Positions 1-58,270 of a stretch of 64,000 nt of DNA are shown in pieces (within the stretch, counting starts at the first letter, position 1; each line of letters opens with the position of its first letter). Made by a program: the position numbers and the translations under genes. Source of the stretch: Desulfoferula mesophila (GTDB lineage Bacteria > Desulfobacterota > Desulfarculia > Desulfarculales > Desulfarculaceae). The stretch covers positions 2,929,501 through 2,993,500 of the forward strand of contig NZ_AP028679.1 of NCBI RefSeq assembly GCF_037076455.1. Reading direction: 5' to 3'. The notes beneath the pieces are model-generated. The model worked only from the letters and a program-made list of their open reading frames with translations. It had not been told where the DNA came from and did not search any database.

Positions 1-636
1 GGCCTTTTGCCCCCCAGCTCGGGCGGGGTGGAGCTGTTGGGCCGCAAAATCGGCTCCTACACCAGGGTGGAGGTGGCCCGCCTTCTGGGCCTGGTGCCCC
101 AAGACGCCGAACTGGCTCCGGGCTTCACCGTGCGCCAGACGGTGCTCACCGGCCGCTTCGCCCTGCAAGGGGGGCGGATGTTTGAGAACCACGAAGACCT
201 GGCCGCCGCCCAAAAGGCCCTCGACGACACCGGCATGAGCGGTCTGGCCCAGCGCCAGACCGGTGAGCTGTCCGGCGGCGAGCGCCAGCGTCTGGCCCTG
301 GCCAGGGCCCTGGTCGCCGAGCCCCGGGTGCTGCTTTTGGACGAACCCACCAGCGCCCTGGACCTCAAGCATCAGTTGGGCATGATGAGCCTCTTGGAAC
401 TCGCCTGCGCCCGCGACCGCCTGGCCGTGTGCCTGGTGAGCCACGATCTCAATCTGGCGGCCCTGTTTTGCCACCGCCTGCTTTTGATCAGCCAAGGGCA
501 GTCCCTGGCCTGGGGCCCGCCCCAGGAGGTGCTCACCCCCGATCTGCTGGCCCAGGCCTATGGGGTGGAGGTGTTGGTGGACCGCGAACCCAGCCGGGGC
601 AGGCCCCGAGTGACCCTCAGCGCACCCCGGCCTTGA
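1..636 (+). CDS. ABC transporter ATP-binding protein, FecE/BtuD type (5' truncated)
   Basis: The reading frame is open from base 1, so the gene starts outside the window and the Walker A loop is missing. What remains has the Q-loop (VPQD), the ABC signature LSGGERQR, Walker [12 protein letters not shown] and the H-loop SHDLN. It is the nucleotide-binding subunit of an importer that powers uptake across the inner membrane. Sequence style and length match the iron-siderophore/cobalamin (FecE, BtuD) group; the substrate cannot be read here. Its stop codon lies inside the promoter of the Cys-rich peptide gene that follows, which suggests a link in metal or metallophore uptake. The permease and binding protein are presumably upstream. 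Confidence 0.9.
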
Positions 637-661
637 CAAAGCCCTCCGAAGCTCCAATAAT
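633..661 (+). promoter_or_regulatory. Sigma-70-type promoter of the Cys-rich peptide gene
   Basis: TTGACA (633-638) and AATAAT (656-661) are separated by exactly 17 bases. This is one of the best consensus matches in the window. The -35 box overlaps the stop codon of the upstream ABC ATPase. Transcription would start near 668. A short inverted repeat, GTCCC/GGGAC at 676-690, lies in the leader just before the ribosome-binding site. Confidence 0.75.
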
Positions 662-707
662 TTATCTAATAACTCGTCCCATGAAGGGACCAACTGGAGG
701 ACAGATC

Positions 708-770
708 ATGAAGATCCAAAAAGTAGTGCGCACGCAGCGCGGGCTCTGCAAGTGCAAGAGCTCCTGCTAG
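708..770 (+). CDS. 20-residue basic Cys-rich peptide, candidate RiPP precursor
   Basis: ATG at 708 follows GGAGGA (696-701) with a 6-base spacer, so this start is well supported; an in-frame ATG at 681 has no such site. The peptide is 20 residues, has no acidic residue, and ends GLCKCKSSC with cysteines at 14, 16 and 20. It has its own strong promoter and is followed by a terminator, then by a radical SAM/SPASM operon. This is the arrangement expected for an abundant precursor and less abundant modifying enzymes. I recall a TIGRFAM-style pair (CbpA peptide, CbpB radical SAM enzyme) with a similar layout but cannot confirm membership. A metal-chelating peptide is an alternative. Translation itself is inferred. 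Confidence 0.7.
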   Translation: MKIQKVVRTQRGLCKCKSSC

Positions 771-787
771 CTTAAGCTAGCTATAAA

Positions 788-820
788 GGGGAGGCACCAC
801 GAGGGCCTCCCCTTTTTCTT
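788..820 (+). terminator. Rho-independent terminator between the peptide gene and its operon
   Basis: GGGGAGGC (788-795) pairs perfectly with GCCTCCCC (805-812) around a 9-base loop and is followed by TTTTTCTTT. It lies between the peptide gene and the DUF192 gene, so it should limit read-through and keep downstream enzyme levels below that of the peptide. Confidence 0.85.
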
Positions 821-838
821 TGCCTATAGGAGCCGTTT

Positions 839-1348
839 TTGACCATCGCGAGACTAACGCGCAAGATCGTCCTGGTCGTTTTGGGGCTGGTCCTGCTCAC
901 CCTAGCCGTGGCCTGGGATTCGCCGCCCGCGGGGGGCATGCCTATGGTCAGGGTCTCCTTCGGCCAACACCAGGTGTTGGCCGAAGCGCCGGTGAGCCCG
1001 GCCCAGCGTCTCAAGGGATTGGGCGGCCGCCAGAACCTGGCGCCGGGCCAGGGCATGCTGTTCATCTTTGCCGGCCGGGCCCTGGGCATGTGCATGCGCG
1101 ACATGAAATTCCCCCTGGATTTCGTCTGGCTGGACCAAGGCAAAGTGTGCCAGATCGACCCCAACGTGCCCGCCGGGGGCGAACGGGTCACGGTGCGAGC
1201 CAAGGTTCCGGCCCAGATGGTGTTGGAGGTGCCCTCCGGCTGGGCCCAGGAGCATGGGGTGTACGTGGGCCAGGAGGTGAGGGTCGACCTCGTAAGCGGG
1301 CAGTTGCCCGAATCCCTGGCCAAAGTCATAGGAAACAACCGGACATGA
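839..1348 (+). CDS. DUF192 family secreted protein
   Basis: The start is TTG at 839, six bases after AGGAG. Residues 1-25 form a hydrophobic signal sequence or anchor. The body carries the DUF192 core, including MCMRDMKFPLDFVWLD, where family members usually have a W/M-N-x-x-FPLD-type motif. Length, 169 aa, is normal for the family. The biochemical role of DUF192 is not established; members are small periplasmic or secreted beta proteins. The stop overlaps the next start (ATGA), so it is coupled to the Cys-rich protein and the radical SAM enzyme. Whether it takes part in peptide export or metal handling is inference from context. Confidence 0.85.
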   Translation: MTIARLTRKIVLVVLGLVLLTLAVAWDSPPAGGMPMVRVSFGQHQVLAEAPVSPAQRLKGLGGRQNLAPGQGMLFIFAGRALGMCMRDMKFPLDFVWLDQGKVCQIDPNVPAGGERVTVRAKVPAQMVLEVPSGWAQEHGVYVGQEVRVDLVSGQLPESLAKVIGNNRT

Positions 1349-1698
1349 CCTCCCTTGAAAGCCAGGCCGACCTGCTGCGGCGCACCGCCTGCGCCGGGCT
1401 GTGCCGCTATTACAAGCCCCACAAGCGCGAAGATCCTGGCTGCGGCGGAGTGGAACTGCTCAAGCGCCGCCCGGACCTGGCCCCCCTTTTGGAGGCCCTG
1501 CCCTCGCCCCCGGACGACGGCCTGTTCGCCCTGGCCGAGGACGATCCCCGCCTGCTGGCGGTGTGCGGGGCCTGCGAATTTCGCATCGACGGCTGCGATT
1601 TCCGCGATCCGGCGGTGGCTCGCGACCAGTGCTCGCCTTGCGGCGGCCTGCGGGCCGTGGCCTGGCTGCTGGACGAGAACCCGGAGCTGAAGCTGTGA
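1345..1698 (+). CDS. Small Cys-rich protein, likely metal or Fe-S binding
   Basis: This 117-residue protein starts at the ATG that overlaps the DUF192 stop. Cysteines cluster as CAGLC plus a GCGG further on, then CGAC-x6-C, then CSPCGG near the C-terminus. The spacing suggests an Fe-S cluster or a zinc site. There is no signal peptide. It sits between the DUF192 gene and the radical SAM gene with 4-base overlaps at both ends, so it is almost certainly co-translated with the enzyme. It could be an electron donor, a metallochaperone or a maturation partner. I do not recognise a named family. Confidence 0.75.
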   Translation: MTSLESQADLLRRTACAGLCRYYKPHKREDPGCGGVELLKRRPDLAPLLEALPSPPDDGLFALAEDDPRLLAVCGACEFRIDGCDFRDPAVARDQCSPCGGLRAVAWLLDENPELKL

Positions 1699-2864
1699 GC
1701 CCCCCCAACCCGGCGCATTACCTGCGCCTGGCCCCCCACGTGTGCCTGCGCCAGTTGGAAGAGCCTTATCTCTACGATCGCCGGGCCGACGAACTCTACG
1801 AACTGAACCAGGAGGGCCTGGAGGCCTTGCAAAAATGCCGGGGCCACCTGACCATGGAGCAGGCGGGCCTGGAGCCCGAGTTCGCCCAGGTGTGCCTGGA
1901 GGAGGGGCTGCTGGAGCTTAATCCCGACCCCTGGCCCATGCCCCTGGCCCTGGGGCCCGGCCCCTCGCCTTCCCTGCGCTATCTGGAGCTGCAGGTTACC
2001 TGGCGCTGCAACCTGGCCTGCGCCCACTGCTATTTGGGCGCGGCCCAAAAGGTGGACCTGCCGGTGGAGCGGGTGGCCGCCATTTTGCGCGAGTTCGAGG
2101 CCATGGGCGGGCTCAGGGTGATGCTCTCGGGCGGCGAACCCCTGATGCACCCCCGGTGGGACGAGATCAACGCCCTGCTGGCCGCCCTGCCGCTGAGGCG
2201 GGTGCTCTTGTCCAACGGCCTGCTCCTGCCCCAGGCCCTGGAAAAGCTCAACTGCGACGAGGTGCAGGTCAGCCTGGACGGGTTGCAAGCGGGCCATGAG
2301 CGCCTACGGGGCAAAGGCAACTTTGCTCAGGCCGTGGCCGCGGCCCGGGCGGTGCGGGAGTCGGGGCGCGACTTGTCCATCGCCACCATGGTGCACGCCT
2401 ACAACCTGGAGGAGATGGCCGGCCTGGAGGAGTTGGTGCGCGAGCTGGGGGCCGGCGAATGGGGCATCGACGCCCCCTGCCTCGTCGGACGCCTGGGGGA
2501 GCACCCCGAGCTGGCCGTTACCCCGGCCCAGGCGGTGGAGGCCATGTCCCGCGCCTATGGCGGGGCCTTTCACGGCGGAGGCGGCGGCATGGCCTGCGGC
2601 CTGCACCTGGCCACCGTGGCCGCCGACGGCAAGGTGGCCCAGTGCGGCTTCTACCTGGACCAGCCCCTGGGCAGGGCCGAGGAAGGGCTGTGGACCTGCT
2701 GGGCCCGGCGCCGGGCGCTGGCCATCAAGGATTTATCCGGCTGCCGGGACTGCGCGGTGGCCGACGACTGTGGCGGCGGCTGCCGCTTCCGGGCCCTGGA
2801 CCCCCGAGGGCCGGACCTGGTGATGTGCGCCGCGTACGGCATGGAGCCAAAGGAGGAGGCATGA
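1695..2864 (+). CDS. Radical SAM/SPASM protein, probable peptide-modifying enzyme
   Basis: GTG at 1695 overlaps the previous stop (GTGA), giving 389 aa. Residues 1-75 resemble a PqqD-like peptide-recognition region. The radical SAM motif is CNLACAHC (C-x3-C-x2-C), followed by LSGGEPL, which binds SAM. The C-terminal third has a SPASM/Twitch-type layout: a Cys in MACGLH, then VAADGKVAQCGFY, then CRDC, DDCGGGCRF and a final MCAAY. Enzymes of this shape install thioether, C-C or related crosslinks in short peptides, and the 20-residue Cys peptide upstream is the obvious substrate. The chemistry is inferred. The gene is coupled to the cupin gene downstream by an ATGA overlap. Confidence 0.9.
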   Translation: MSPPNPAHYLRLAPHVCLRQLEEPYLYDRRADELYELNQEGLEALQKCRGHLTMEQAGLEPEFAQVCLEEGLLELNPDPWPMPLALGPGPSPSLRYLELQVTWRCNLACAHCYLGAAQKVDLPVERVAAILREFEAMGGLRVMLSGGEPLMHPRWDEINALLAALPLRRVLLSNGLLLPQALEKLNCDEVQVSLDGLQAGHERLRGKGNFAQAVAAARAVRESGRDLSIATMVHAYNLEEMAGLEELVRELGAGEWGIDAPCLVGRLGEHPELAVTPAQAVEAMSRAYGGAFHGGGGGMACGLHLATVAADGKVAQCGFYLDQPLGRAEEGLWTCWARRRALAIKDLSGCRDCAVADDCGGGCRFRALDPRGPDLVMCAAYGMEPKEEA

Positions 2865-3220
2865 AAGAAGTATACGACCTGGAAGGACGGGTGCGCCGGG
2901 AAGGCGGCGAAACCATCCTGGGGCTTAAGGATCTTGACACCCACGCCTGCTACCTGATTTACGGGGTGCTGGACCCCGGCGGACCGGCCCGCATACTCAA
3001 GCCGGGCGACGGCCACGAGGAGATCATCCTGGCCACGGGCGGCACCATACGCCTCAAGGGCGGCGGCAACGAGGTGTTGCTGCGCCCCGGCCAGGCGGTG
3101 TACCTCAAGGGCGTGGAGACCTGGGAGGCCTATTGCGAGGGCGAGTACGAGGCCCGCTACGTGGCCGCCGGGGGGCATACGCCCGGCCGGGAGCACGGGC
3201 ATGGAGAGCATTCGCATTAG
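2861..3220 (+). CDS. Cupin-fold protein with His-rich C-terminus
   Basis: This is a 119-residue single-domain protein. Motifs such as KPGDGHEEIILATGG and LRPGQAVYLKG follow the two cupin motifs, and the C-terminus is a His-rich tail, GREHGHGEHSH, suited to binding Ni, Co or Zn. The ATG overlaps the radical SAM stop (ATGA) after an AGGAGG site. It closes the putative peptide-modification operon. It may bind the mature metal-peptide complex, act as a sensor, or carry out a further oxidation; none of this can be decided from sequence. A bidirectional terminator follows about 120 bases downstream. Confidence 0.8.
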   Translation: MKEVYDLEGRVRREGGETILGLKDLDTHACYLIYGVLDPGGPARILKPGDGHEEIILATGGTIRLKGGGNEVLLRPGQAVYLKGVETWEAYCEGEYEARYVAAGGHTPGREHGHGEHSH

Positions 3221-3230
3221 CGGGGTAGGC

Positions 3231-3315
3231 GGCTGCGCCAGACAGCGGCATACGGCGTTGCCGGCATAGCTCGCTTCCTCGGCGTATTAGCCATACGCCT
3301 GCAGATCTCGCTCGC
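3231..3315 (-). repeat. Interspersed palindromic repeat, copy A
   Basis: Read on the minus strand, this segment aligns over about 85 bases with 13293-13378. It shares GCAGGCGTAT-N3-TAATACGCCGAGG and the tail CAACGCCG...CTGGCG-AGCCG. The core is an imperfect palindrome, so RNA from either strand would fold into a hairpin. It lies in the 3' region of the cupin gene, inverted relative to copy C at 3484. Confidence 0.75.
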
Positions 3316-3483: not shown

Positions 3484-3568
3484 GACAGCCGGAGCTATAG
3501 CCACGCCTACAGCGAGGCTGGAGAGAGGCCGGCAACGCGGTATGCCGTCGTCTGGCGAAGCCGGCCAA
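3484..3568 (+). repeat. Interspersed repeat, copy C (diverged)
   Basis: The right half, GGCAACGCGGTATGCCGTCG followed by TCTGGCGAAGCCGG, matches copies A and B closely. The left half keeps CGAGGCT and the overall spacing but has lost the clean GCGTAT palindrome. The copy ends at the base next to the permease stop codon. Copies A and C form an inverted pair around the terminator. Confidence 0.6.
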
Positions 3569-4723
3569 CTAATGCTGGTGGCCGCAGCCGCAGGAGCTGG
3601 ACCCGCAGGAAGACACCGGAGCCAGGCTGTCCAGGCTCTGCAAGCCGCCCCGCTGGCGGCCCAGCTTGCGCCTGGCCAAACGCCACAGCGGGGCGATGGA
3701 CAGCAGCACCAAGAAGCCCGCCCCGGCCTGGCGCAGCCAATCGGGCAGAATCTCGCCCGCCGCGCCGGCCACGGCCAGGGGGCTGAGGCCGCTGAGGGCG
3801 AAGACCTGGTCCAACAAGAGGCCCGAGGCCACCGCGCCCAGGGCGATGCCCGCCAGATACAGGGCGGTTCCCCGCTTGCCCAACACCCCCACCAGCACGG
3901 TGAGGGAGGTGACGTTGGTGGCCGGTCCGGCCAACAGGAACACCAAGGCCGCGCCGGGGCTGACCCCCTTGAGGATCAGGGCCGCGGCGATGGGGGTGGA
4001 GGCGCTGGCGCAGATGTACAGCGGTATGCCCACGGCCAGCATGATGAGCATGGAGCCCATGCCCCCGCCCAGATAGCGAGTGAGGAACTCTGCCGGGACC
4101 AGGGCGGCGATGACGCCCGCCAGGAGGATGCCCAGCCAGAACCAGGCGGCCAGGTCTTCCCACAGCTCGCCCCGGGCAAAGGCCATGCCGGCCCGGGTCC
4201 GCTGCCAGAAGGTGTGGTGATGAGCGTGGTCCTTTGGGGCGCAGTCCACACCGTCGCAGCAGGCGTCCACCGGGCAGGTGAGGTCCGGCGGCGCGGCGGG
4301 CTGCTCGCGCTTTTCCGGCAGGAGCCCCATGCCCAGGCCGGTCAACAAGGCGGTGACCACGGCGGCCAGGGGCCGGGCCACGGCCATCACCGGGCCCAAG
4401 AGGGCGTAGGTAAGGGCGATAGAGTCCACGCCGGTCTCCGGGGTGGAGACCAAAAAGGAGGCCACCGCCCCCCGGCCCGCGCCCTGACGCTTGAGACCGG
4501 CGGCGGCGGGCAGCACCCCGCAGGAGCACAGGGGCAGGGGCAGACCCAGCAGGGCGGCCTTGAACACCGGCCCCACCTTGCCTTGGCCCAGGTTGCGGCT
4601 GACGAAGTCGGGGCTCAGGAAGGCCTTCAAGAGCCCGGCCACCAGCAGCCCGAAGACTATGTAGATGGAGGCCTCGGCCAGCAGGCGCCAGCACTCGGCC
4701 AGGATGTCCACGATGATGTGCAC
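3569..4723 (-). CDS. SO_0444/YraQ-type permease, putative metal or metalloid efflux
   Basis: This 384-residue membrane protein has two blocks of four to five hydrophobic helices separated by a hydrophilic loop. The loop contains CPVDACCDGVDC and HAHHH. The sequence LPLCSCGVLP and the later ICASASTP are hallmarks of the DUF318/ArsP-like permease family. The C-terminus, SSCGSSSCGCGHQH, is a likely soft-metal binding tail. Members export Cu, Zn or organoarsenicals. It follows the ArsR gene in the same direction with a short gap, so both are probably co-transcribed and derepressed by the exported metal. The actual substrate is not determined. Confidence 0.85.
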   Translation of the reverse strand: MHIIVDILAECWRLLAEASIYIVFGLLVAGLLKAFLSPDFVSRNLGQGKVGPVFKAALLGLPLPLCSCGVLPAAAGLKRQGAGRGAVASFLVSTPETGVDSIALTYALLGPVMAVARPLAAVVTALLTGLGMGLLPEKREQPAAPPDLTCPVDACCDGVDCAPKDHAHHHTFWQRTRAGMAFARGELWEDLAAWFWLGILLAGVIAALVPAEFLTRYLGGGMGSMLIMLAVGIPLYICASASTPIAAALILKGVSPGAALVFLLAGPATNVTSLTVLVGVLGKRGTALYLAGIALGAVASGLLLDQVFALSGLSPLAVAGAAGEILPDWLRQAGAGFLVLLSIAPLWRLARRKLGRQRGGLQSLDSLAPVSSCGSSSCGCGHQH

Positions 4724-4738
4724 GTAACGCCTCGCAGT

Positions 4739-5116
4739 CTAGTCGTGGTGCAGGTGCTCCAGGCTGGCGGCCAGGAGCTGATCCACGTGCTCGTCGTCCA
4801 GGGAGTAGTAGAGCATCTGGCCATCGCGGCGGTTGTTGACCAAGGCCAGGTCCTTGAGGCGGCGCAGGGCGTGGCTAACCGCCGAATCGCTGACCCCGGT
4901 GAGGGCGGCCAGGTCGCACACGCACATCTCCCCTCCCCGGAGGGCCAGGAGGATGCGCAGCCGGTTGGGATCGCCCATGGCCTTGTACAGCTCGGCCAGG
5001 CGGCCCAACTCCGGGTCCGATGGGGCCTGCTCGCGGGCCCGGCGCACCCGATCCAGGTGCACCATCTTTACCCGGCAGCCCTCTTCTTCTATGAGCTTGC
5101 TCTTCTTGGCTACCAC
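4739..5116 (-). CDS. ArsR/SmtB family metal-responsive repressor
   Basis: This 125-residue winged-helix protein carries DPNRLRILLAL and VSDSAVSHALRRLKDLALV in the recognition helix. The motif EMCVCDL is the ArsR-type metal site (CxC before the recognition helix), and the C-terminal EHLHHD could add ligands. Repressors of this family leave DNA when they bind As, Cd, Zn or Cu. A perfect palindrome, TTGAACATATGTTCAA, lies just upstream between this gene and the divergent thioredoxin-like gene, so it is likely to control both directions. The permease it precedes is the expected target. Confidence 0.93.
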   Translation of the reverse strand: MVAKKSKLIEEEGCRVKMVHLDRVRRAREQAPSDPELGRLAELYKAMGDPNRLRILLALRGGEMCVCDLAALTGVSDSAVSHALRRLKDLALVNNRRDGQMLYYSLDDEHVDQLLAASLEHLHHD

Positions 5117-5131
5117 GCCGCGCCTCCATAC

Positions 5132-5147
5132 TTGAACATATGTTCAA
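5132..5147. promoter_or_regulatory. ArsR-family operator palindrome
   Basis: TTGAACATATGTTCAA is a perfect 16-base inverted repeat between the divergent arsR and thioredoxin-like genes, 16 bases upstream of the arsR start. It contains the TGAA...TTCA pattern typical of SmtB/ArsR operators. One dimer here could repress both transcripts. Confidence 0.75.
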
Positions 5148-5230
5148 ATATATCATTAGGTATTTTATGCGCAAGCCTGGTTGCCAAATTTTTCCCGCCG
5201 GGCTATAGCCCAAGTAAGGGAGGCGCGGCC

Positions 5231-5740
5231 ATGAAGGATGTGCGGCAGATCAAGGTTAACGGACACCAGGTGGGCATCCGGGGACTGGACCGGGTGCTGG
5301 AAGAGCTGGCCCCGGCCTATGCCCCGGAGCGCGAGGAGGAACTGGCCGCCCAGCTTATGGAGCGCCTGCGCCACGAAAACTACATCCCCGACTCGGCCCG
5401 CCAGGCCTATGCCCAGGCCCTGCGCGACCAGCTGCGCCGGGCGGTGGGGCTGGAGCCCTTGAGCGCCTCCAGCGGCGGTCTGAGCATCCAGGTGGCCTGT
5501 GGGGGCTGCGCGGGGGGCGACCAACTGCTCCAAGCGGTGTACGACGCCCTGTCCCGCCTGGGCCTTAGCGGCGAGGTGGAGCGGGTGAGCGACGCCCTGG
5601 AGATAGCAGCCCTGGGCCTTAGGGGCACCCCGGCCCTGGTCGTCAACGGCGAGGTAAAAGCGGTGGGCTCCATTCCCTCGGCCGGGCAGATAGACGACTG
5701 GCTGGGCCGGGCCGCCGAGGTGAAGCCGTCGAAACACTAG
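5231..5740 (+). CDS. Thioredoxin-fold protein (Thioredoxin_3 type) with N-terminal helical domain
   Basis: ATG at 5231 follows GGGAGGC. The C-terminal ~75 residues form a small thioredoxin-like domain with a CGGC active site and a cis-proline loop (GTPALVVNG), as in the small redox-active disulfide protein 2 family. The first ~85 residues are charged and helical and are not part of the usual short family form. The gene is divergent from arsR/permease across the operator, a setting where such proteins accompany metalloid efflux. A redox role in metal or arsenic handling is likely but inferred. Total length is 169 aa. Confidence 0.8.
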   Translation: MKDVRQIKVNGHQVGIRGLDRVLEELAPAYAPEREEELAAQLMERLRHENYIPDSARQAYAQALRDQLRRAVGLEPLSASSGGLSIQVACGGCAGGDQLLQAVYDALSRLGLSGEVERVSDALEIAALGLRGTPALVVNGEVKAVGSIPSAGQIDDWLGRAAEVKPSKH

Positions 5741-31686: not shown

Positions 31687-32496
31687 TTAGTGCCAGTCAA
31701 CAGTAGAAACTTCAGGTGAATTTATAGCGAGGTATTCGGCTGGTGTCAGGTTGCCGAGGGACTCATGAGGGCGTTCCTCGTTGTACTCCTTGAGCCAGCG
31801 ATCCGTGATTTCCCGCACCTCGCTTAGACGGGAAAATATGTAAAGGTCCAGCACCTCTTCCCGATAGGTCCGGTTGAAGCGTTCAATGTATGAATTCTGG
31901 GTGGGCTTGCCGGGCTGAGTGAAACCCAAATCGATACTATGCTCCTCGGCCCATTGGGCCATAGCTACACTGACCAGCTCCGGGCCGTTGTCCAGCCTCA
32001 GCCTGGACGGGTAGCCCCGCCAGGCAGCGATACGCTCCAGCACTCGGATTATCCTTTGGGCGGGGAGATTGACGTCCACCTCTATGGCCAGGGCCTCTCG
32101 ATTGAAATCATCCACCACATTAAAGGTCCTGAATCGCTGGCCGCCATACAGGGCATCGCTCATGAAGTCCACCGACCAGCAGATATTGGCCAGATCCGGC
32201 ACTGCAAGCGGCTGGGGATCACGAGTAGGCAGGCGCTTCTTACCCTTCCTGCGAAGGTTTAGCTTCAGGGCGCAGTACACTCGGTACACCCGCTTGTGAT
32301 TCCAGCCATGTCCATCCCGCCGAATTACTTGAAACAGTTTGGCAAAGCCGTATCTGGGATATTTGTCTGCCAGCGAAGTCAGCGCCTCGATGATCGGACC
32401 ATCGTCGCGGGGCTTGGGTCGGTAGGCATAAACCGACCGGCTCAGCCTCAGGGCGCGGCAGGCCCGGCGAATGCTCAGACCGTGCTCTTTGCACAT
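31687..32496 (-). CDS. IS3-family transposase OrfB (IS a)
   Basis: This 269-residue rve integrase-core protein has the DDE residues in SVDFMSDAL, LRLDNGPEL and NSYIERFN. Upstream of the ATG the frame stays open as KNIRPAGRRDLAKF, which joins orfA through a minus-one shift at the A-rich stretch before the orfA stop. The complete enzyme is the OrfAB fusion. It ends inside the terminal inverted repeat. Confidence 0.93.
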   Translation of the reverse strand: MCKEHGLSIRRACRALRLSRSVYAYRPKPRDDGPIIEALTSLADKYPRYGFAKLFQVIRRDGHGWNHKRVYRVYCALKLNLRRKGKKRLPTRDPQPLAVPDLANICWSVDFMSDALYGGQRFRTFNVVDDFNREALAIEVDVNLPAQRIIRVLERIAAWRGYPSRLRLDNGPELVSVAMAQWAEEHSIDLGFTQPGKPTQNSYIERFNRTYREEVLDLYIFSRLSEVREITDRWLKEYNEERPHESLGNLTPAEYLAINSPEVSTVDWH

Positions 32497-32528
32497 GAAC
32501 TTAGCCAGATCGCGCCGACCCGCTGGCC

Positions 32529-32795
32529 TTATATTTTTCTTTCGATGACGTCCTTCAGAGCCCGATTCTCAAGGCTCAAGTCGGCGTACATCTGCTTTAG
32601 ACGCCTGTTTTCTTCTTCAAGCTCCTTGAGCCGGACGATGTCCGAGGCCTCCATGCCCCCGTACTTGGACTTCCATTTGTAGTAGGTGGCGCTGCTGACA
32701 CCGTATTCCCGGCAGACCTCCTTGGCGGTCCTGCCCCCTTCCACCTCTTTCAGAATTTTGACGATCTGAGTTTCGCTGAATCTGGTCCTGCGCAT
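32529..32795 (-). CDS. IS3-family OrfA helix-turn-helix protein (IS a)
   Basis: This 88-residue protein has an HTH_Tnp_1-type recognition region (TAKEVCREYGVSSATYYKWK) and a leucine-zipper tail (RLKELEEENRRLKQMYADL). It binds the IS ends and, by minus-one frameshifting, is fused to OrfB. AAGGAGG lies nine bases before the ATG. The slippery run is at the GAAAGAAAAATATAA end. Confidence 0.92.
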   Translation of the reverse strand: MRRTRFSETQIVKILKEVEGGRTAKEVCREYGVSSATYYKWKSKYGGMEASDIVRLKELEEENRRLKQMYADLSLENRALKDVIERKI

Positions 32796-57954: not shown

Positions 57955-58028
57955 TGTCTGTCGGATGGTGAGAGACAAGGTTAAAACTTGCCTTTTAGAT
58001 GACCCCAGCCGCGCATCCCACTTTGAAT

Positions 58029-58270
58029 TCTTCGCCAAAGGGCATGCAAAACACGGGATTTGGCTCCAGAGCGCTCCGCGACACGCACCGCATCGCTTAT
58101 CGCTGCTTCCTTCCGGACCTGACGAGGTTCACGACCGTACGTCGCGCGGTGTCCGGAACAAACCCAGTGCTTACAAAACTCCTCGACGAACAACCCTAGG
58201 CGGGCCTTCAGCCCCGCGAAAGCGGATTTCGGGAAAAGGGCACCGCTAGCTCCCCGCCTAGCACGGCCGG
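58029..58270 (-). ncRNA. ffs: Signal recognition particle RNA, large type
   Basis: On the minus strand the universal SRP hairpin GTCAGGTCCGGAAGGAAGCA is present near 58103-58122. Long-range pairing extends its stem (GTAAGCAC...GGGTTTG with CAAAT-CCCGTG...TTTGC, and TTCGTC with GGCGAA). Further 5', CTAGGCGGG (58261-58253) pairs perfectly with CCCGCCTAG (58204-58196) and closes a separate folded domain. That matches an Alu-domain layout rather than the short 4.5S RNA of enteric bacteria. Ends are approximate. Confidence 0.85.

Follow-up and report, generated by a model that had tools for sequence, protein, structure and literature searches.

A conserved 20-residue cysteine peptide and its radical SAM/SPASM enzyme in Desulfobacterota, probably an unnamed RiPP family with an intracellular, cofactor-like product

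We analyzed a 64,000-nt stretch of the Desulfoferula mesophila genome (contig NZ_AP028679.1, positions 2,929,501 to 2,993,500; hereafter, the window). Near its start, it carries a gene for a cysteine-rich peptide of 20 residues, followed by a short operon encoding a radical S-adenosylmethionine (SAM) enzyme of the SPASM type and several small proteins (Table 1). The peptide proved to be conserved across Desulfobacterota families far beyond chance and, within the genomes sampled, never occurred without the enzyme. We assign a probability of about 0.8 to the reading that this locus is a radical SAM-dependent system for a ribosomally synthesized and post-translationally modified peptide (RiPP), in which a RiPP recognition element (RRE)-like domain binds the peptide, the enzyme modifies its CKCxx[STA]C tail with a Cys-rich protein, here called Cys8, as partner and a cofactor-like product results. 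The family is probably unnamed and its product probably intracellular. An earlier note on this DNA had proposed a combined RiPP/metallophore locus; the RiPP-type pairing of a short Cys peptide with a radical SAM/SPASM enzyme held up, while the metallophore uptake part fell away with the assignment of the neighboring importer to corrinoids, as discussed below.

The association was evaluated in 395 Desulfobacterota genomes using a profile of the enzyme, which detected the family in 38. When the peptide was searched for with a strict DNA pattern, 31 genomes matched, all belonging to these 38, whereas the 357 enzyme-negative genomes gave no match; neither did the reversed pattern, used as a control. 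Ignoring relatedness, the association has P = 1.1e-39 by genomes and 1.9e-30 by genera. Inspection and looser patterns located the peptide in the remaining seven enzyme-positive genomes as well, bringing the count to 38/38. While the enzyme-negative genomes were checked with the strict pattern, five of them (G012, G015, G146, G274 and G332) were also searched with up to three mismatches and still contained no match, including G146, which keeps just a Cys8/RRE remnant of the enzyme system. Two family genomes without the enzyme likewise lacked the peptide. The same 20-residue open reading frame (ORF) adjoins nearly every enzyme orthologue; the earlier note had named a lack of such conservation as its refuting check, and the result was the reverse. 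Selenocysteine variants were sought in seemingly peptide-less loci and none were found; in the genomes concerned, the Cys peptide is encoded at another site.

The profile search covered Desulfobacterota, with other phyla covered by exact 8-residue patterns alone. Among 84,980 species, these patterns matched only six close relatives, all in records named Desulfarculaceae, Desulfarculus, Desulfobacca or unclassified Proteobacteria. Viral contigs gave no match, and plasmids yielded distant radical SAM proteins only. Sulfate reduction was considered as a linked trait and rejected: dsrA was present in 24/38 enzyme-positive versus 14/38 chosen negative genomes, a weak enrichment, and is not required.

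All 40 distinct peptides are exactly 20 residues long and follow the pattern M-x-I-x-K-[VI]-x-[KR]-x5-C-K-C-x-x-[STA]-C. Constant throughout are M1, I3, K5, [VI]6, [KR]8, C14, K15, C16 and C20, while position 19 is S or T and, once, A. The N-terminal half is basic and conserved (M-[KTS]-I-x-K-[VI]-x-[KR]), and none of the peptides contains Tyr or Trp. Codon changes are mostly silent, with a ratio of nonsynonymous to synonymous substitution rates (dN/dS) of ~0.14 in close pairs, showing that the gene is under purifying selection. A good ribosome-binding site, GGAGG, precedes its start codon in the window.

The enzyme sequences (41 in total) all match PF04055 and share an invariant radical SAM motif, CX3CX2C (C105, C109 and C112), and an invariant SPASM Cys set (C301-x15-C317 ... 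C350-x2-C353-x5-C359-x3-C363-x14-C378); the Pfam SPASM model itself was not reached by these sequences. An AlphaFold2 model with a mean predicted local distance difference test score (pLDDT) of 91.5 had SkfB as its best PDB match (Z 27.1, root-mean-square deviation (rmsd) 4.6 over 323 residues), followed by SuiB (Z 25.9, rmsd 3.8 over 356 residues). Both proteins are RiPP maturases, and the alignments start at model residue 14 or 9 and, thus, include the N-terminal domain, which on the basis of this predicted fold classifies as an RRE (PqqD-like) domain. By profile, the best solved relatives were SkfB and PqqE. The Cys motifs and predicted fold agree with the previous description of a radical SAM/SPASM enzyme with a PqqD-like N-terminus. 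None of the 25 best NCBIfam models listed for the window enzyme reached its cut-off, the top one being ScmE (84 versus 400 bits), and no more specific Pfam or NCBIfam family fitted the peptide or any of the four operon proteins.

Two further proteins accompany the pair in many genomes. Cys8 and the enzyme constitute a single ORF in several families, which argues that they act together, and Cys8 was present in 27/38 enzyme-positive versus 7/357 enzyme-negative genomes. A fold search with Cys8 returned no match, which is not proof of a new fold. Relatives of the small cupin were found in 24/38 enzyme-positive versus 12/357 enzyme-negative genomes. The gene context of cupin relatives in enzyme-negative genomes was not informative, and the Cys8-like proteins of the seven enzyme-negative genomes offered no clue either.

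We propose that the separately transcribed 20-residue peptide is made as a precursor and is recognized through its conserved, basic N-terminal half, to which the RRE-like domain of the enzyme would bind. The enzyme would then alter the CKCxx[STA]C end, where Cys is the most plausible site and a thioether or another Cys-centered link the outcome. Cys8 would most likely be an Fe–S or metal-binding partner of the enzyme, involved in electron supply or substrate handling, and the cupin and DUF192 proteins would be optional. We infer action of the enzyme on the peptide, its likely substrate, from existing knowledge of SPASM/RRE enzymes (SkfB, SuiB, PqqE and MftC) combined with the co-occurrence. 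The product would remain inside the cell with a redox or metal-binding, cofactor-like function, rather than being a bacteriocin or secreted metallophore. This suggestion is based on the near-invariant peptide, the conserved core of the loci, in which no exporter, protease or immunity gene was found, and the mycofactocin precedent. More specifically, and only tentatively, as we consider it somewhat doubtful, the mature CKCxx[STA]C peptide may be a previously unknown intracellular cofactor of part of the Desulfobacterota, either a redox carrier or a thiolate metal ligand. If true, it would represent a counterpart of pyrroloquinoline quinone (PQQ) and mycofactocin built on crosslinked cysteines. 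As the precursor has 20 residues and the minimal system comprises two genes, the chemistry should be directly accessible to expression and mass spectrometry.

Several points weigh against this proposal. Similarity of fold does not fix the chemistry of the enzyme. Neither a protease nor an exporter dedicated to the system was found, and the cofactor idea is suggested by conservation, with no partner enzyme found. Families f12 and f26 lack Cys8, and 14/38 enzyme-positive genomes lack the cupin, rendering the roles of both uncertain.

The peptide might alternatively be no substrate at all but a small unmodified partner of the enzyme, acting as a three-thiolate metal or Fe–S ligand, an activator or a sensor. 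Judged from its sequence, the peptide may bind a metal through its three invariant Cys and several basic residues; the near-invariant sequence and strict co-occurrence with the enzyme would also suit such a role. We nevertheless consider it unlikely, as an RRE-like domain and SPASM fold are typical of peptide-modifying enzymes and short peptides encoded next to enzymes of this kind normally serve as their substrates (compare PMC3023750). Much less probable still is a sactipeptide-type bacteriocin, a thought raised by SkfB, a sactisynthase, as the closest solved fold: the peptide is near-invariant across the phylum and usually encoded once per genome, and the conserved core lacks exporter, protease and immunity genes.

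The peptide gene is equipped with its own promoter and terminator, as the earlier note had stated. The promoter search found one site versus 0.2 expected, and among relatives with an upstream peptide gene, most have the same promoter ~75 bases 5′ of the start codon. The terminator hairpin (~−23 kcal/mol) has an equivalent at the same place in most relatives of this arrangement. A short ORF with Cys codons and a terminator hairpin immediately after it, recurring in most upstream-peptide loci, would also describe a transcription attenuator of the operon with the peptide as its Cys-sensing leader. We give this idea practically no weight: the non-Cys residues are conserved as well (dN/dS ~0.14), and peptide genes located 3′ of the enzyme in one family or unlinked in several genomes rule it out.

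Across families, the commonest gene order is peptide, Cys8 and enzyme, often with the cupin next. Some families, f12 among them, have the peptide gene 3′ of the enzyme; it lies ~20 kb away in genome G246 and on a different contig in G046 and G327. The peptide is usually single-copy, with two copies in G002 and G341 and a second, unlinked copy in G288. At the G341 locus (L102), the enzyme gene is followed by two identical peptide genes that bracket a methyltransferase and then a cupin-like gene, all in a row. Loci of family f12 have, after the peptide or enzyme gene, one for an ATP-grasp-like protein (L090:3817-4806, with equivalents in L089, L092-L095 and L097), which could be an additional tailoring enzyme of the system. 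Redox genes, such as those for rubrerythrin and an NAD(P)H-rubredoxin reductase-like protein, were seen near some loci, a suggestive but not constant feature.

The peptide gene is preceded by the ATP-binding cassette (ABC) importer ATPase described in the earlier note, which had suggested that this importer takes up or senses the peptide product. Ahead of the ATPase, upstream of the window, are genes for a FecCD-type permease and two binding proteins, one of them fused to CbiZ. A cobalamin riboswitch (109 bits; L032:3577-3756), ~4.3 kb before the window start, heads the importer operon. CbiZ is an adenosylcobinamide amidohydrolase. The CbiZ fusion and riboswitch indicate uptake of corrinoids, and we predict from these sequence features that the importer is a corrinoid (BtuFCD/CbiZ) salvage transporter. 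It adjoins the module in the window's genus only; this genus-limited adjacency is, therefore, no evidence of peptide uptake. A secreted metallophore re-imported by this transporter, for which the adjoining importer genes in the genus would speak, is accordingly a scarcely credible product: the importer is of the corrinoid type, other genera do not have it beside the module, and no exporter was found.

Within the window, successive genes for DUF192, Cys8, the enzyme and the cupin are joined by 4-base overlaps, in line with the tightly coupled operon noted earlier; the small protein reported there with nine Cys has eight on recounting. The DUF192 gene is confined to the genus locus and absent from most other loci.

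Table 1 Features of the peptide locus and other elements detected in the window.
Feature	Position in window	Strand	Remarks
ABC-importer ATPase, BtuFCD-type	1-636	+	Neighbor; not judged part of the peptide system
Sigma-70-type promoter of peptide gene, TTGACA-17-AATAAT	633-661	+	11/12 consensus match
Peptide ORF, 20 residues, MKIQKVVRTQRGLCKCKSSC	708-770	+	Precursor-like; length invariant at 20 codons in the 38 enzyme-positive genomes
Intrinsic terminator between peptide gene and enzyme genes	784-822	+	Stem-loop ~784-814, then T run
DUF192 protein, N-terminal hydrophobic segment	839-1348	+	PF02643, E 6e-23
Cys8 protein, 117 residues, 8 Cys	1345-1698	+	7 of 8 Cys invariant in family; no Pfam family
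Radical SAM/SPASM enzyme, 389 residues, RRE-like N-terminal domain	1695-2864	+	PF04055, E 3.5e-19
Small cupin-like protein, 119 residues, His-rich tail	2861-3220	+	Weak Cupin_2 match
Inverted repeat, 43 nt	3230-3272 and 3521-3563		84% complementary
ArsP-type permease and ArsR-type regulator	3569-5740	−	Further small gene after them
isrN (Rfam)	32388-32530		Above gathering score
Bacterial large signal recognition particle RNA	58009-58266	−	

Just beyond the module, on the other strand, are the genes for an ArsP-type permease and an ArsR-type regulator, which are retained at that place in the genus and in G009. The inverted repeat flanks the intergenic region 3′ of the cupin gene. Elsewhere in the window, the match to isrN, a small RNA family known from Salmonella, is unexpected in this lineage.

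A literature search, with subscription papers mostly outside its coverage, found no description of the peptide–enzyme family, which looks new. In a 2014 survey of RiPPs in anaerobes (PMC4289311), the Desulfobacca acetoxidans protein Desac_0107 was listed as a putative sactipeptide enzyme; it is a possible member of the present family. With 20 residues, the precursor is short but not the shortest, a distinction reported for biarylitides (PMC12951456).

The locus was compared to several known systems. The sactisynthases SkfB and CteB, which form Cys-to-alpha-carbon thioethers, provide the best fold and profile matches and share the RRE, radical SAM and SPASM-type layout and a Cys-containing substrate. 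They differ in that identity to the present enzyme is ~20% and that the precursor here has 20 residues and no separate long leader. The Cys-rich tail and modeled SkfB-like fold would fit sactipeptides or ranthipeptides. SuiB, the second-best fold match with the N-terminal domain included, makes the Lys–Trp crosslink of streptide, whereas the present peptides are devoid of Trp. The GeoRSP radical SAM system (NCBIfam TIGR04303) is likewise a radical SAM/SPASM family of unknown product, but the enzyme scores 74 bits against a cut-off of 400. PQQ biosynthesis (PqqA, PqqE and PqqD) resembles our system in its very short precursor, radical SAM/SPASM enzyme and PqqD-like recognition domain. As no peptide contains Tyr, a Glu–Tyr crosslink is impossible, and membership in this family, with its Glu-x3-Tyr precursor, is excluded by this lack together with the score on the PqqE model (61 versus 381 bits).

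A parallel in overall pattern is mycofactocin (MftA, and MftC with MftB), a peptide-derived cofactor first recognized through a tiny peptide with an invariant tail that was tied to one radical SAM enzyme (PMC3023750). In both systems, a short peptide ends in an invariant tail, never occurs apart from one radical SAM/SPASM enzyme and is conserved at the protein level, and there is no transporter or immunity gene (PMC3023750). Mycofactocin membership is excluded by the peptide tail, which is CKCxx[STA]C instead of CGVY, and by the model score (54 bits versus a cut-off of 265); moreover, the RRE is fused to the enzyme here. The Desulfobacterota loci display this kind of signature around another core, one based on Cys; Cys8 is a fused partner, and an exporter is lacking.

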